Made by a program: the position numbers and the translations under genes. Of a DNA stretch of 64,000 nucleotides, positions 848-47,140 are shown piece after piece. This stretch comes from Pseudofrankia sp. DC12. Its GTDB lineage: Bacteria; Actinomycetota; Actinomycetes; Frankiales; Frankiaceae. The stretch is from positions 4,232,540 to 4,296,539 of the forward strand of contig NZ_KQ031391.1 of assembly GCF_000966285.1 (NCBI RefSeq), read 5' to 3'. Every line of letters starts with the position of its first letter. The first letter of the stretch is position 1. The notes below the pieces were generated by a model. That model was not told the origin of the DNA and made no database searches. It was given only the letters and a program-made list of their open reading frames with translations.

Positions 848-1753
848 ATGAGCCCGCCCCGGCGCCCGTCGAGGGAGAAGCGACCCCGCCCGGCGGTCCC
901 CGACGCGACCGTCGCCCGGCTGCCTCTCTACCTGCGAGTGCTGACCGGCCTGGCCGATGACGGCGTCGAGACCGTGTCGTCGGACACGCTGGCCGCCGCC
1001 GCAGGGGTGACTCCGGCGAAGGTGCGAAAGGACCTCTCGTACCTCGGTTCCTACGGCACCCGAGGCGTTGGCTACGACGTCGACGTGCTGCTGGACCGGA
1101 TCTCGGCACGCCTCGGGCTGACCGAGGACCGAGGCGTGATGCTCGTCGGAGTAGGTAATCTCGGGCACGCGCTCGCGCGCTATGGCGGTTTCCCGGCGCG
1201 TGGGTTCCGGATTGTCGCGCTCGTCGACGCCGATCCCGCTCGTGCCGGTGCGCTTGTCGGCGATGTGGAGATCCGGCCCGTCGCCGAGCTGGAAAGACTG
1301 ATCGAGGACTATCAGGTGACGATCGGTGTGATCTGTACCCCGGCTGGAGCGGCGCAGCAGGTCTGCGACCGGCTGGTCGCCGCGGGGGTCACCAGCATCC
1401 TCAATTTCGCGCCGGTTGTGCTGTCCGTGCCCGACGGGGTCGATGTGCGTAAGGTCGACCTGGCGGTTGAGCTGCAGATCCTCTCGTTCCACGAGGCGCG
1501 CAAACGCCCGGACCGGTCCGCCGAGCCGCGCGTCCGGCCGGCCGCCCCGGGCACGCTCCCCCTGGAGGGGGCGGTAGGCGCACTCTCCCCGGATGGGGCG
1601 ACAGGCTCGCGGCCTGAACTGCGCACGGTGGAGGCGGAAGGGCGCACCCGGGGAATCGCCCCGGTGGAGCGTGGGGACGCGGAGCCGGCGCCCATAACGG
1701 CGGTCGGAACGGAGGCCGTCATGCGGCTGGCCACAGGAAGTGAGGGCTCGTGA
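848..1753 (+). CDS. rex: redox-sensing transcriptional repressor Rex
   Basis: Rex reads the NADH/NAD+ ratio and represses respiratory and heme genes. The N-terminal winged helix (about residues 18-75) carries the typical [11 protein letters not shown]...VRKDLSYLG...GTRGVGYDV pattern, and a Rossmann fold follows with the dinucleotide loop GVGNLGHAL. The ATG has a good GGAGGAG site 6 bases before it. At 301 residues it is longer than most family members (about 210-260): an extra tail of about 85 residues after the dimerisation helix is low in complexity and looks disordered. The gene overlaps hemA by 4 bases (GTGA), so rex and hem are co-translated. A Rex operator lies upstream at 580-597. Confidence 0.95.
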
Positions 1754-41531: not shown

Positions 41532-42686
41532 GTGAGCGAGATCCGATCCCTGCTGGCCCGGGCCGCCGATGGTGGCCGGATCACCCCCGATGAGGCGTTG
41601 CTGCTGTACACGCAGGCGCCGCTGCACGCGCTCGGGCAGGCTGCGGACGCCGTGCGCCGGCGTCGCTTCCCGGACGGCATCGCGACCTACATCATCGACC
41701 GGAACATCAACTACACCAACGTCTGCGTGACGGCGTGCAAGTTCTGCGCGTTCTACCGGGCACCGAAGCACGAAGAGGGCTGGGTCCGCGACGTCGACGA
41801 CATCGTCGCCAAGTGCGGCGAGGCGGTCGAGCTCGGTGCCACGCAGATCATGCTGCAGGGCGGCCACCACCCCGAGTTCGGCATCGAGTGGTACGAGACC
41901 GCCTTCTCCTCGATCAAGGCGGCCTACCCCCAGCTGGCGCTGCACTCGCTGGGCGCGAGCGAGGTCGTGCACATCGGGCGCACCTCTGGGCTGACCCACG
42001 AGCAGGTCATCGTCCGGTTGCGCGCCGCCGGGCTCGACAGCTTCGCCGGGGCCGGCGCCGAGATCCTCACCGAGCGGCCGCGGGCCGCGATCGCGCCGCT
42101 CAAGGAGCCGGGCCACGTCTGGCTCTCGGTGATGGAGACCGCGCACGGCCTGGGCCTCGAGTCAACAGCGACGTTCATGATGGGCACCGGCGAGACGAAC
42201 GCCGAGCGGATCGAGCACATGCGGATGATCCGTGATGTGCAGGACCGTACCGGCGGGTTCCGGTCCTTCATCCCGTGGACCTACCAGCCGGAGAACAACC
42301 ACCTGAAGGGCCGCACCCAGGCGACTCTCTTCGAGTACCTGCGCCTGGTCGCGGTCGCCCGGCTGTTCTTCGACAACGTCGCCCACCTACAGGGCTCGTG
42401 GCTGACGACTGGCAAGGAGGTCGGCCAGCTCACCCTGCACCTGGGTGCCGACGACCTCGGCTCGGTGATGCTGGAGGAGAATGTCGTCTCCTCGGCTGGC
42501 GCCCGGCACCGCACCAACCGGACCGAGCTGATCCACCTGATCCGCTCGGCCGACCGGATCCCGGCCCAGCGCGACACCCTGTACAACCACCTCGTCGTCC
42601 ACCGCGACCCGGCCGACGACCCGGTCGACGAGCGGGTTGCCTCGCACTACTCGTCCACCGCGCTCCCGCTCGTCCAGGCGAGCTGA
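41532..42686 (+). CDS. mqnC: cyclic dehypoxanthinyl futalosine synthase
   Basis: Radical-SAM cyclisation of dehypoxanthinyl futalosine, the third enzyme class of the futalosine menaquinone pathway. 384 residues. The cluster motif CVTACKFC gives Cys65, Cys69 and Cys72. [42 protein letters not shown] and [14 protein letters not shown] are typical of MqnC. GTG 41532 is preceded by an AGGG site. menG starts 38 bases after its stop. The hydrolase mqnB and the final cyclase mqnD are not in this window. Confidence 0.95.
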
Positions 42687-42724
42687 ATGCGGGCGATTCG
42701 TGCCGCGGCTCGGGAGCCGCGCCG

Positions 42725-43498
42725 GTGACCGCCTTGGGCAAGCCCGACCAGACCAGCGCGCCCGAGGCCGCCGCCCCGGTTGGCCGGGGAAGACGGGCTG
42801 GTCTGGACAAGCGTCCAGACCAGGTCGCCGCGATGTTCGACCAGGTGGCGCGCCGCTACGACATCACCAACGCGGTCCTGTCGGCCGGGATGGACCGTGG
42901 CTGGCGGACGGCGACCGCGCGCGAGCTGCGGCTTGCCGCGGGCCAGCGGGTGCTCGACCTGGCCGCCGGCACCGCCACGTCCTCGCGGGCGTTCGCCGCG
43001 GCCGGTACCGACGTGCTCGCCTGCGACTTCTCCGTCGGGATGCTGCGCGCGGGCCAGACGCGGCTGGCTCGCCGGCCGCCGGCCGCCGGCTCCGTGCGGC
43101 TGGTGGCCGGAGACGGGCTGCAGCTGCCGTTTCCGGACGAGGCCTTCGACCGGGTGACGATCTCCTTCGGGCTGCGTAACGTCGCGGACGTGCCGGCCTG
43201 CCTGGCCGAGCTGCGCCGGGTGACCCGGCCGGGCGGGCGGCTGGTCGTCTGCGAGTTCAGCCAGCCGACCTGGGGGCCGATGCGCCGGCTGTACCTGGAG
43301 TACCTGATGCGCGCGCTGCCCGCGGTGGCCCGCGCGGTCTCCAGCAGCGCCGACTCCTACGTCTACCTGGCCGAGTCGATCAGGGCCTGGCCCGCGCAGC
43401 CCGACCTCGCCGCCCTGCTCACGGCGTCCGGCTGGACCAACGTCGGCTGGCGGAACCTCTCCGGCGGCATCGTTGCCCTGCACCACGGCGACCGCTGA
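42725..43498 (+). CDS. menG: demethylmenaquinone methyltransferase
   Basis: SAM-dependent methylation of demethylmenaquinone to menaquinone, the last step. 257 residues with UbiE/MenG features: [24 protein letters not shown] motif [31 protein letters not shown] and [19 protein letters not shown]. The GTG start is the first plausible codon; the longer open frame upstream runs through the end of mqnC as a shadow. An Ala/Pro-rich stretch of about 25 residues precedes the domain. Confidence 0.94.
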
Positions 43499-44157
43499 GG
43501 TAATTCCGCGGACGCGTCGCCAGCGTGGGTACGGAGATCGGCAGCGGGGATGGTCCACGGGATGGGCAACGGCGCTGAGATCGGCGAGCGGGCCGGGCGG
43601 CACGACCGCCCGCCCTCGGCCGACCGCACCGCGGTTCTTGTCCGTTTGTCATAACTGCCCGTCGGTCGGGCGGTGCCGGTCCGCGCCGGTCCCCGCGACC
43701 GGGTGCCTACCTGGGCGGTGAAATCGGCCCGGTCGCCGGCCGGGTGGCTGACGTCTCGCCTGTCGTCCTTGACGGAGTCCAACCCAGGCCGCGCCCGCCC
43801 AGGCCCTCCTGATCGCTCTACTTTGTCGCGGCTCGGAGATCGCCGTGGTAGCAGGGCCTGACAGGCGCCGATCGCGAGCGTGACCGGGCCTTAGCAGATG
43901 AGCTGGGTCACTCGATGGTGGGTCACTTGTCAGAGCGCCGACAAATCGGCCGGGCGCCGGCGGCGGGTCGAGCTCCTCTCGGCGCCGCATCGCCCCAGTG
44001 GTCGAACGGCTGCCCGGCGAGGCAGTTCGGGCCCGATCGCGCCTCGTCATGCGACGTAGGTGGCAGCGCAACGACCCTTCGTGGTCGCCCGAAGAGCGAC
44101 GTCGGCCAGTCTGGGAGCGGAACCATCCTGGTTGATGCCAATGGCGGTGTGAGCGCC

Positions 44158-44163
44158 TACACT
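44158..44163 (+). promoter_or_regulatory. candidate -10 of the MenJ-like gene
   Basis: TACACT fits TANNNT; TTGATG (44132-44137) lies 20 bp upstream, a long spacer. Start of transcription would be near 44170, just before the Rex palindrome. Confidence 0.35.
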
Positions 44164-44178
44164 CGGCCGTGGCGGGAC

Positions 44179-44200
44179 GCTCGTGAAGAAATTCACGAGC
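44179..44200 (+). promoter_or_regulatory. Rex operator upstream of the MenJ-like/nuo block
   Basis: Perfect 9-bp arms GCTCGTGAA (44179-44187) and TTCACGAGC (44192-44200) around GAAA. The core TCGTGAA-N4-TTCACGA is nearly the same as the 580-597 operator arm TTCACGA and close to the known Rex consensus. It sits just downstream of a possible -10 and 80 bases before the MenJ-like start, so Rex binding would block elongation. Confidence 0.8.
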
Positions 44201-44279
44201 GTGGCGAGGAACACGCGGGCAACGACCGGCGAACGGCCGGGGTTCCCGCCGGTCTGCCCCGGAGGATCCGCGAAGGAAG

Positions 44280-45650
44280 ATGCGGAACCTCAGGAGGCGG
44301 ATCGGTGTGGCACCTGGTGACGAGTCGGCTGTCGGTGGGGAGTATCGGGTGACTGGGACCACGGCGACGTCGGGCGGCGCGACAGGCGCCGATGCCGACG
44401 TGATCGTCGTCGGTGCCGGCCCGGCTGGCTCCGCCGCCGCGTACCACCTGGCCAACGCGGGCCTGGACGTGCTGTTGCTGGAGAAGGCGACCTTCCCGCG
44501 CGACAAGGTCTGCGGTGACGGCCTGACGCCACGAGCGGTCGCCTGCCTGGTCAAGATGGGGATCGAGACCGGCCAGGACGCCGGCTGGGCCCGCAACAAG
44601 GGCCTGCGGATCGTGGGCGGTGGCCTGCGCCTGGAGCTGCCCTGGCCGGAGCTGGCGAGCTTCCCGGACTACGGCCTGGTCCGCCCTCGCGCGGACTTCG
44701 ACGAGCTGCTCGCCCGGGCGGCCGAGAAGGCCGGCGCCCGGCTGCGGGAGGACACGACGGTGTCCGGCCCCGTGCGCGACGAGCGGACCGGCCGCGTCGT
44801 CGGGGTGACCGCCCGGTCCGGGGACGACCGTGAGCCGGTGACCTACCGGGCGCCGGTCGTCGTCGCCGCGGATGGGAACAGCGCCCGTCTCGCTCTCTCG
44901 ATGGACATCCGGCGGCGTGACGACCGGCCGCTCGGAGTGGCGGTCCGCCGCTACTACCGCAGTCCGCGCACCCATGATGACTACCTCGAGTCCCACCTGG
45001 AGCTCTGGGAGGGCAAGCCGAACGCCAGCCGGCTGCTGCCCGGCTACGGCTGGATCTTCGGGATGGGCGACGGCACCAGCAACGTCGGCCTCGGGATCCT
45101 GAACACCACCCCGGCCTTCGGTAACACCGACTACCGGGATCTGCTGCGCCGCTGGCTGTCCGCGCTGCCGCCCGAGTGGGGGTACACCGAGGACAACGCC
45201 ACCGGGCCGGTGCGCGGCAGTGCGCTGCCGATGGGCTTCAACCGCACCCCGCACTACGCCGACGGCGTGCTGCTCGTCGGCGACGCGGCCGGCATGGTCA
45301 ACCCGTTCAACGGTGAGGGCATCGCCTACGCGATGGAGTCCGGCGAGCTCGCGGCCGAGGTGGTCGCGCAGGCGCTGGCCCGGCCGGCGGGCGCGGGGCG
45401 GGAGAAGGCGCTGCTTCAGTACCCGGAGGCGGTGCGGGCCCGCTACGGCGGCTACTACACGCTTGGCCGCGTCTTCGTGAACCTCATCGGCAACCCGACC
45501 GTGATGCGGATGGCCACGAAGTACGGCCTGCCGCACCCGGTGCTCATGAGGTTCATGTTGAAGATCATGGCGAACCTCACTGACCCGCGGGGAGGTGATG
45601 CGCACGACCGGGTGATCAACGCACTGTGCCGGCTCGCGCCGAGCGCGTAA
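44280..45650 (+). CDS. geranylgeranyl reductase family FAD protein (MenJ-like)
   Basis: 456 residues. FAD-binding VIVVGAGPAGSAAAYHLANAG, KVCGDGLTPRAV, RPRADFDELLARAAEKAG and GDAAGMVNPFNGEGIAYAMESG define the family. Members reduce isoprenoid double bonds; in mycobacteria the homologue MenJ partly saturates the menaquinone side chain, and a role of this kind is likely next to nuo and menaquinone genes. ATG 44280 has GAAGG just upstream; GTG 44307 or GTG 44349 could also be used, since the domain begins near residue 40. A Rex operator precedes it and nuoA follows after 306 bp. Confidence 0.9.
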   Translation: MRNLRRRIGVAPGDESAVGGEYRVTGTTATSGGATGADADVIVVGAGPAGSAAAYHLANAGLDVLLLEKATFPRDKVCGDGLTPRAVACLVKMGIETGQDAGWARNKGLRIVGGGLRLELPWPELASFPDYGLVRPRADFDELLARAAEKAGARLREDTTVSGPVRDERTGRVVGVTARSGDDREPVTYRAPVVVAADGNSARLALSMDIRRRDDRPLGVAVRRYYRSPRTHDDYLESHLELWEGKPNASRLLPGYGWIFGMGDGTSNVGLGILNTTPAFGNTDYRDLLRRWLSALPPEWGYTEDNATGPVRGSALPMGFNRTPHYADGVLLVGDAAGMVNPFNGEGIAYAMESGELAAEVVAQALARPAGAGREKALLQYPEAVRARYGGYYTLGRVFVNLIGNPTVMRMATKYGLPHPVLMRFMLKIMANLTDPRGGDAHDRVINALCRLAPSA

Positions 45651-45956
45651 CTCCAGACGTGGAATGCGCCGCGACCGGGCCAGCGATACCGCGAGCCGCG
45701 CCAGCGGTACGGGGGCTGTCGCGCAGGGAAACCACAGTGGACACCCGAACAACGTGGGTCAAAAGGTCCGTCCGTACTACCCCTATTGCGCGCCGAAGGC
45801 CACGGGAAAGTGCCGGTGCGCAATTGTGCGGCCATGCGCGCCCAGGCGAGCGAGAACCTGGACCGAGTAGGACCGCCCGGCCTGGGCGGCGTATAAGGGA
45901 ACAGAACCGAACCGGCGCAGCGCCGGCCAAAATTTCTCTGGAGAGAGGAGCTCGGC
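45651..45956 (+). other. nuo upstream region
   Basis: 306 bp before nuoA. It has a CCGCCC/GGGCGG hairpin (45873-45889) followed by TATAAG (45892-45897), a weak -10 candidate with TAGGAC (45867-45872 region) about 18 bp before it. I find no Rex-type palindrome here, so redox control of nuo, if any, would come through the upstream operator. A small frame across it is probably not coding. Confidence 0.4.
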
Positions 45957-46319
45957 ATGCTCTCCAACTACGTGCCGATCCTCGTCCTGATCGCGATCGC
46001 CACAGCGTTCGCGGGCGGGTCGATCGTGATCAGCATGCTGGTCGGGCCGAAGCGGTTCAACCGGGCAAAGCTCGACGCCTATGAGTGCGGCATCGAGCCG
46101 GAGCCGGAGCCCGCCGGGCCCCGCCGTTTCCCGGTGAAGTTCTATCTCATCGCGATGCTCTTCATCGTCTTCGACATCGAGATCATCTTTCTGTACCCGT
46201 GGGCGGTCGCCTTCGGCGGGCTGGGCGTGTTCGGCCTCGTCGAGATGGTGCTGTTCGTGGCTACGGTGTTCGTCGCCTATGCCTACGTCTGGCGGCGGGG
46301 AGGCCTGGAATGGGACTAG
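45957..46319 (+). CDS. nuoA: NADH-quinone oxidoreductase subunit A
   Basis: 120-residue membrane-arm subunit with three helices; [11 protein letters not shown] on the loop between helices 1 and 2, and FLYPWAVAF in helix 2. GAGAGGAG before the ATG is the strongest ribosome site in the operon. It starts the 14-gene nuo operon and overlaps nuoB by 10 bases. Confidence 0.96.
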
Positions 46320-47140
46320 AGGAGAAGCTGCCCAGCGGGGTGCTTCTCGCCAGTGTCGAGAAGCTCGCCGGAATGGGCCGCAAGTCGTCGCTGTGGCCGG
46401 TGACGTTCGGCCTGGCGTGCTGCGCCATCGAGATGATGGGCACCGGTGCCGCGCGCTATGACCTCGCCCGGTTCGGCATGGAGGTCTTCCGGGCGAGCCC
46501 CCGTCAGGCCGACCTGATGATCGTGGCCGGCCGGGTCAGCCAGAAGATGGCCCCGGTGCTGCGCCAGATCTACGACCAGATGCCCGAGCCCAAGTGGGTG
46601 CTCTCGATGGGTGTCTGCGCCAGCTCCGGCGGCATGTTCAACAACTACGCGATCGTCCAGGGTGTCGACCACATCGTCCCGGTCGACATGTATCTCCCCG
46701 GCTGCCCGCCGCGGCCCGAGATGCTGATGGACGCGATCATGAAACTCCACCGGAAGATCCAGACCGGGCCGGTCAACGGCAAGCTGGACCGCACCGAGAT
46801 CGGCAACTCGCCGTACCCGAAGCCGATCGAGGTCGCCACCGCCCAGTCCGCGCTGCCCGAGGGCAGCCTCGACACCCGGACGCTGTCGGTCAACGACCGC
46901 AAGCGGTTCCGGATGCCGGCCAATGCCCCGCTGCCCGCTGGCCGCGGCGCCGTCGAGGCTGTGCTGAACGACCGCAGGCCCGCCGCCGTAGCGCCGCCCT
47001 CGGTGTTCGGTCGCCGCAAGATGCTCCCGGTCGTCGGCCAGCCCAACGAGGAGGCGTTCGACCCGGAGCTGTTCGACGCCGAGCCGACGGACAACATCCA
47101 CGGCCGCGGCACCGGACCGACGACCAAGGACCTGGGCTGA
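46310..47140 (+). CDS. nuoB: NADH-quinone oxidoreductase subunit B
   Basis: Carries terminal cluster N2, which passes electrons to menaquinone. Ligands Cys37, Cys38 (CCAIEMM), Cys103 (GVCASSGG) and Cys132 (PGCPPRPE) are intact. The body ends near residue 170; about 100 further residues form a tail beyond the E. coli/Thermus length. Such extensions are seen in other actinobacteria, with no known role. The open frame upstream of 46310 overlaps nuoA as a shadow. Confidence 0.95.

Follow-up and report, generated by a model that had tools for sequence, protein, structure and literature searches.

The ggr-nuo locus and its predicted Rex operator

We analyzed a 64-kb stretch of the 6.88-Mb genome of Pseudofrankia sp. 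DC12, called the window here, which carries the gene for the redox-sensing repressor Rex and, farther along, a geranylgeranyl-reductase-family gene (ggr) followed by the nuo genes of complex I. The features of the window that matter for the argument are as follows.

580 to 597, no strand assigned: second exact Rex operator (ROP), at rex, with a -10-like TAGACT just downstream
848 to 1753, plus strand: rex, redox-sensing repressor (NF003992, 362.8 bits; cut-off, 226)
44126 to 44138, plus strand: conserved upstream element TCCTGGTTGATGC, seen when Frankiaceae upstream regions are set side by side
44158 to 44163, plus strand: putative -10 hexamer TACACT of a ggr-nuo promoter, starting 23 nt before the ROP core
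44177 to 44202, no strand assigned: predicted Rex operator, 11-bp perfect arms and a 4-bp spacer
44349 to 45650, plus strand: ggr, geranylgeranyl-reductase-family FAD protein (TIGR02032, 267.5 bits; cut-off, 158.8)
45651 to 45956, plus strand: ggr-nuoA intergenic region, in which neither an ROP nor a plus-strand intrinsic terminator was found
45957 to 46319, plus strand: nuoA, first gene of the nuo cluster (NF005922, 210.6 bits; cut-off, 155)
46310 to 47140, plus strand: nuoB, an open reading frame matching PF01058

The rex product is the only PF06971 match in the genome and resembles solved Rex chains. The ggr product passes the TIGR02032 cut-off, which makes it a member of the geranylgeranyl reductase superfamily. 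Its start is probably the GTG at 44349, giving a protein of 433 amino acids, and not the ATG at 44280. A GTG start stands at an equal distance from the operator in six of the eight genus members examined, the other two having a GTGAC start at a different distance; ATG 44280 is not common to the genus members, and one relative has GTG there. The original prediction described the gene as MenJ-like. MenJ, a menaquinone reductase, belongs to the same superfamily, but the ggr product scores only 246 bits with the MenJ model NF045655 against a curated cut-off of 700. This is the best NF045655 match among the five paralogues found in the genome, and no match passed that cut-off in 14 control genomes either. 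The MenJ identity is thus unproven, and the product should not be named MenJ. A role in menaquinone modification is nevertheless plausible because mqnC (TIGR03699, 482 bits; cut-off, 428) and menG (NF001241, 377 bits; cut-off, 327) lie 5' of ggr, and the product is probably a menaquinone side-chain reductase. The menG open reading frame at 42275 to 43498 encodes 407 amino acids with its methyltransferase domain at residues 182 to 405, so that the true menG start probably lies far downstream.

The palindrome that had been predicted at 44179 to 44200 is indeed there, reading GCTCGTGAA-GAAA-TTCACGAGC. The description of 9-bp perfect arms around GAAA holds for the inner 22 bp; the arms in fact extend to 11 bp each, ACGCTCGTGAA-GAAA-TTCACGAGCGT, at 44177 to 44202. 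The 18-bp ROP core, TCGTGAAGAAATTCACGA at 44181 to 44198, fits TYGTGAA-N4-TTCACRA (the YR form, which allows T or C at position 2 and A or G at position 17) at all 14 specified positions and has two mismatches to the strict TTGTGAA-N4-TTCACAA. As had also been noticed, the TTCACGA arm is shared with TTGTGAACTCTTTCACGA at 580 to 597, upstream of rex. Both sites belong to the same 18-bp operator family as the Streptomyces avermitilis rex-hem operator. The S. avermitilis Rex operator consensus is TTGTGAANNNNTTCACAA, and the S. avermitilis hppA site, TCGTGAATCAATTCACGA, whose probe is bound by Rex, has arms identical to those of the site before ggr (PMC5355995).

As a bare palindrome, the element is unexceptional: inverted repeats with perfect 9-bp arms around a 4-bp spacer occur three times in the window (72% GC). 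As a match to the ROP, it is exceptional. The pattern TYGTGAANNNNTTCACRA has two exact matches in the 64 kb, where an order-2 Markov model trained on the window predicts 0.00013. For the looser TN...NA form, TNGTGAANNNNTTCACNA, the 6.88-Mb genome yields two sites, the expected number being 0.04, and the reversed control has none. A YR-form match is expected 0.014 times across the whole genome, and the only two exact sites stand before rex and before ggr. Allowing up to two mismatches to the YR form yields 39 sites genome-wide versus 7 for the reversed pattern. The sole one-mismatch site (L289) falls within long open frames of both strands. The other 36 sites, with two mismatches each, were counted as a group, and weaker Rex targets may be among them. 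S. avermitilis Rex binds the promoter regions of nuoA1, rex, cydA1, and hppA, and NADH lowers its binding (PMC5355995). The Pseudofrankia genome has two cytochrome bd subunit I genes (L302 and L303) that, unlike S. avermitilis cydA1, have no ROP: a search of the 1.5 kb upstream of these two cydA loci gave best matches of five and four mismatches, respectively.

The site is conserved in the Frankiaceae, whose close named relatives of this strain are Frankia, Pseudofrankia, and Parafrankia. A search of 35 genomes of the order with TNGTGAANNNNTTCACNA found exactly two sites in 29, three in 2, one in 2, and none in 2; the reversed control pattern found no site in any of them. Comparison of positions placed a site at rex in 31 of the 32 Rex-positive genomes, the exception (G023) being a 63% complete genome with rex at a contig edge. 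The ggr-nuo locus was found in every genome except G023, and 32 of these 34 loci have an ROP just 5' of ggr. One of the two loci without it (L058) is cut short by a contig end, and the other (L055) comes from G021, a Rex-negative genome that is 94% complete in 290 contigs. Against a strict rule, G013 and G017 keep the ggr site with no detected rex; both are fragmented assemblies. Taken together, the consensus match, the rarity in the genome, the conservation, and the co-occurrence with Rex bear out the proposal that 44177 to 44202 is very probably a Rex operator.

Placement of the operator across the class

To place this layout, we used an even sample of the class in which 158 genomes were searched with NuoB and 150 matched. 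For 119 of the 136 matched genomes outside the Frankiaceae, the region upstream of nuoB was taken (120 loci, one genome contributing twice); the 17 left out were at contig edges or came from genera or families that the sample already represented. Rex was scored by a PF06971 match above the cut-off, so that one genome with a match below it (G077) counted as negative. Genomes absent from the PF06971 match list were taken as Rex-negative, eight of them being without a match. An ROP was called at two mismatches or fewer.

Where ggr adjoins nuoA and Rex is present, the ROP stands before ggr in 57 of 59 readable loci, 54 of them having it before ggr only and 3 also before nuoA; the exceptions are G070 and G102, and 4 further loci of this kind were truncated and are not counted. 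In Rex-positive loci whose ggr is missing or distant, the ROP stands before nuoA in 33 of 38. These comprise a streptomycete-type genus (g22) with ggr on the same strand 1.7 to 4.3 kb away (11/11 before nuoA and none before ggr) and loci with no ggr within about 6 kb (22/27, the exceptions being four genomes of family f4 and G157). In all 13 loci of the streptomycete-type genus, a two-mismatch site lies within 200 bp of nuoA. On short contigs with Rex present and no ggr in view, the ROP was before nuoA in all three cases. Of 16 Rex-negative loci, 15 lack the ROP, including G040, where ggr adjoins nuoA; the exception, G093, is a 380-contig assembly. Overall, an ROP is found at the head in 93 of 100 Rex-positive loci versus 1 of 16 Rex-negative loci. 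Random 400-bp windows from the same loci contained a site this good in 127 of 2,120 cases, an overestimate, as the true sites were kept. In three genomes of family f15 (L237, L251, and L252), operators lie before both ggr and nuoA.

Fisher tests, which ignore relatedness, gave 3e-17 for operator place versus ggr adjacency and 9e-13 for ROP versus Rex. On a NuoA+NuoB tree (127 rows and 261 columns, quick search), there were nine changes of adjacency and eight of ROP place. Place versus adjacency yielded two independent pairs on supported branches, too few for significance, and Rex loss versus ROP loss likewise yielded two supported independent pairs and was not significant.

The ggr-proximal site occurs in 37 Rex-positive genera (20 families), with 2 genera having an adjacent ggr and no site, and a site before nuoA with no adjacent ggr occurs in 11 genera (7 families). 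This distribution suggests that a ggr-proximal ROP is the usual layout in the class and that the Streptomyces layout is the exception. A second set, the best 80 named loci by ggr protein similarity, partly overlaps the class sample, and 66 of these loci have a readable nuoA. With a gap of 500 bp or less between ggr and nuoA, the ROP is before ggr in 20 of 21 loci, and none of the 21 has a site before nuoA at two mismatches or fewer. The 20 include all five Saccharopolyspora loci and Actinopolymorpha rutila; the one locus that departs from this, L099, very likely belongs to G040, the genome mentioned above in which rex was not detected. With a larger gap (45 loci, mostly Streptomyces and Kitasatospora), a two-mismatch site lies between ggr and nuoA in 45 of 45 loci; an ROP before ggr was found in none of the 45, the best matches there having four to six mismatches. 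Many streptomycete-type loci (L196, L219, L226, and others) have a second ROP-like site, of the TCGTGAACGCGTGCACGC type, about 410 to 475 bp before nuoA.

The S. avermitilis nuoA1-N1 operon shares with ggr-nuo the operator consensus, the regulator family, and complex I as target. It differs in that its ROP lies 147 bp before nuoA1 (PMC5355995, Table 1), while the Pseudofrankia ROP lies before ggr, about 1.75 kb 5' of the nuoA ATG at 45957, as originally predicted. The further suggestion that control had moved here from a nuoA-proximal site is not supported, the ggr-proximal site being the commoner one, and the direction was probably the reverse. In the streptomycete-type genus, ggr survives nearby, separated from nuoA, and this separation looks derived. 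In Streptomyces viridochromogenes (L138), ggr and nuoA are separated by two open reading frames on the opposite strand, which on visual inspection look like a peptide deformylase and an NLP/P60 protein; co-transcription from ggr is therefore unlikely there. From comparison within the class, on which the polarity rests, these patterns suggest that the ggr-proximal operator is the older state and the Streptomyces state the derived one.

Predicted promoter layout and the proposed link to nuoA

The ROP before ggr stands in the putative promoter region of a redox and respiratory unit, ggr-nuo, together with a conserved -10-like hexamer. A TANNNT hexamer starting 10 to 24 nt 5' of the ROP was found in 32 of 32 Frankiaceae loci and in 56 of 58 class loci with the site before ggr, versus 0 of 32 and at most 2 of 58, respectively, in four control offset ranges. 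In all 32 Frankiaceae loci, it starts 17 to 23 nt ahead of the operator core, and the hexamers mostly read CCTACACT or CCTAGACT in context. The position of the hexamer just 5' of the ROP suggests that Rex probably blocks RNA polymerase at or just past the start site. With TACACT at 44158 to 44163, transcription would start near 44170, and the operator would lie within the first transcribed bases. Farther upstream, TCCTGGTTGATGC (44126 to 44138) may be a -35 or an activator element; TTGATG lies 20 nt from the ggr -10, which is long for a classical -35. Several Frankiaceae genera have TCCTGGTTGRTGC about 20 nt ahead of the ggr -10, a possible activator site. A sigma-70 consensus scan of 43500 to 46000 returned no promoters, ggr included, and hence is uninformative on promoters.

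At the two exact Rex sites, the geometry is opposite: the -10-like hexamer lies 3' of the ROP at rex and 5' of it at ggr. The rex ROP is 268 bp ahead of the rex start, and in all 14 Frankiaceae rex loci examined, AGTCGTAGACT or something close to it comes immediately after the operator; the ROP would thus cover the -35 and spacer region. Both geometries have precedents among the S. avermitilis Rex footprints, which were mapped at -39 to -17 for rex, -50 to -22 for atpI, -42 to -16 for nuoA1, -3 to +25 for cydA1, and +108 to +135 for wblE (PMC5355995). The nuoA1 footprint lies 5' of the start site, unlike the layout proposed here for ggr, which argues against simply extending the ggr layout to Streptomyces. 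Among the sites assigned to nuoA in the class sample, the arrangement of a -10 followed by the ROP was seen in 21 of 36, against at most 3 of 36 in any control range; several of the 36 are distal streptomycete sites, which dilute this count.

Does the operator before ggr also govern nuo? The two genes are on a common strand, and a search for a plus-strand intrinsic terminator between them found none, but they lie 306 bp apart. The original prediction saw no palindrome in these 306 bp, and this stands: the best ROP match there has five mismatches, no better than in shuffled sequences. Across the class, an ROP is found at the head of the unit that starts the nuo cluster, and for this reason the site before ggr would control nuo too and ggr-nuo very probably forms a single Rex-repressed unit. 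The earlier proposal that control was moved to, or extended over, the quinone gene therefore survives in its second half: control probably extends over ggr and complex I.

A nuoA-proximal operator was also sought across the Frankiaceae and rejected; in 34 intergenic regions the best matches had four to seven mismatches, each equalled by at least 14% of shuffles. Among these loci, L038, L042, L048, L049, L051, L053, and others have a conserved GTCGCGTAGGCT 5' of nuoA, preceded at several of them by a CCCGGT-GCG-ACCGGG hairpin.

The main alternative is that Rex acts on ggr only and that nuoA is read mainly from a redox-independent promoter of its own in the 306-bp gap. The ggr-nuoA gap is longer in the Frankiaceae (118 to 503 bp) than elsewhere in the class sample (median, 92 bp; range, 27 to 222 bp; n = 65). 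Moreover, a motif that may serve some Frankiaceae as a second, internal nuoA promoter, CGTAGGCT, precedes nuoA in 13 of 34 loci, and at least one TANNNT occurs in the gap in 25 of 34. The gap of Pseudofrankia sp. DC12 itself, however, contains neither CGTAGGCT nor any TANNNT, and no plus-strand terminator was found in it. Control of ggr alone would also make it hard to explain why the ROP stands before nuoA in 33 of the 38 Rex-positive loci with no adjacent ggr. We therefore regard this alternative as unlikely. A much less probable one is that the transcript folds at the palindrome into a hairpin of 11 bp with a GAAA loop, which would work in the 5' leader, for example in stability or attenuation. 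Given the proposed start site, the palindrome would be transcribed, and its loop here is GAAA, but among relatives the operator letters are constant and the 4-nt spacer is not (GAAA, GAAT, CAAT, ACGT, and others), and the outer pairs are broken at some sites, such as TAGTGAA...TTCACAA. The letters also match those of the rex operator, and most genomes without Rex lack the element. That the palindrome arose by chance and has no function, as the three bare 9-bp inverted repeats with a 4-bp spacer in this GC-rich window might suggest, is already contradicted by its conservation at 32 of 34 Frankiaceae loci and by the expectation of 0.014 YR matches per genome, and this reading can be set aside. 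In our judgment it is highly likely that 44177 to 44202 is a Rex operator at, or just past, the start of a promoter that reads ggr and then nuo as one unit.

A proposed model for joint control of complex I and a probable quinone reductase

Our analysis is consistent with a model in which ggr, followed by the nuo genes, would be transcribed as a single unit from a promoter with the -10 TACACT. At a low NADH/NAD+ ratio, Rex would sit on the operator and block RNA polymerase. When NADH rises, as under oxygen limitation, Rex would leave the operator, and this release would yield more complex I together with more of a reductase whose likely role is saturation of the menaquinone side chain. We infer Rex binding, co-transcription, and the quinone substrate at ggr-nuo from the genomic pattern, and the NADH response would follow by analogy with the Streptomyces work.

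A connection between ggr and nuo has been described in Actinomyces oris, where ggr lies within the nuo locus, as it does here, and where a Tn5 insertion in ggr gave the same class of phenotype as insertions in nuoA, nuoJ, and nuoG (PMC5478893). The phenotype of the ggr insertion could reflect polarity or the function of GGR itself; the passages concerned do not treat Rex. Our literature search found no paper on a Rex site before ggr, and an earlier prediction may exist in Rex comparative-genomics work or in RegPrecise. The main text of a study of Saccharopolyspora spinosa rex (PMC4172946) mentions neither nuo, ROP, nor geranylgeranyl.

For the class as a whole, we lean toward a picture in which most Actinomycetia that have Rex would make complex I and a menaquinone-tail reductase from a single unit that responds to NADH and has a -10 and then the ROP before ggr. 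Streptomyces would be a derived exception, where other genes came to lie between ggr and nuoA by insertion and nuoA has an operator of its own. Rex control of complex I was worked out in Streptomyces, whose layout would be atypical if the class pattern holds; the usual Rex target unit would then include a probable quinone side-chain reductase. For annotation, the pattern offers a rule: the nuo unit starts with the gene just after the ROP. Judged by exact sites, the Rex regulon of the Frankiaceae usually has two members only, which makes it a convenient minimal system. If the reductase does belong to the unit, the question of whether NADH/NAD+ tunes menaquinone saturation along with complex I becomes directly testable. 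If this picture is right, the redox state of the cell would determine how much complex I is made and also the chemistry of the electron acceptor that it uses.
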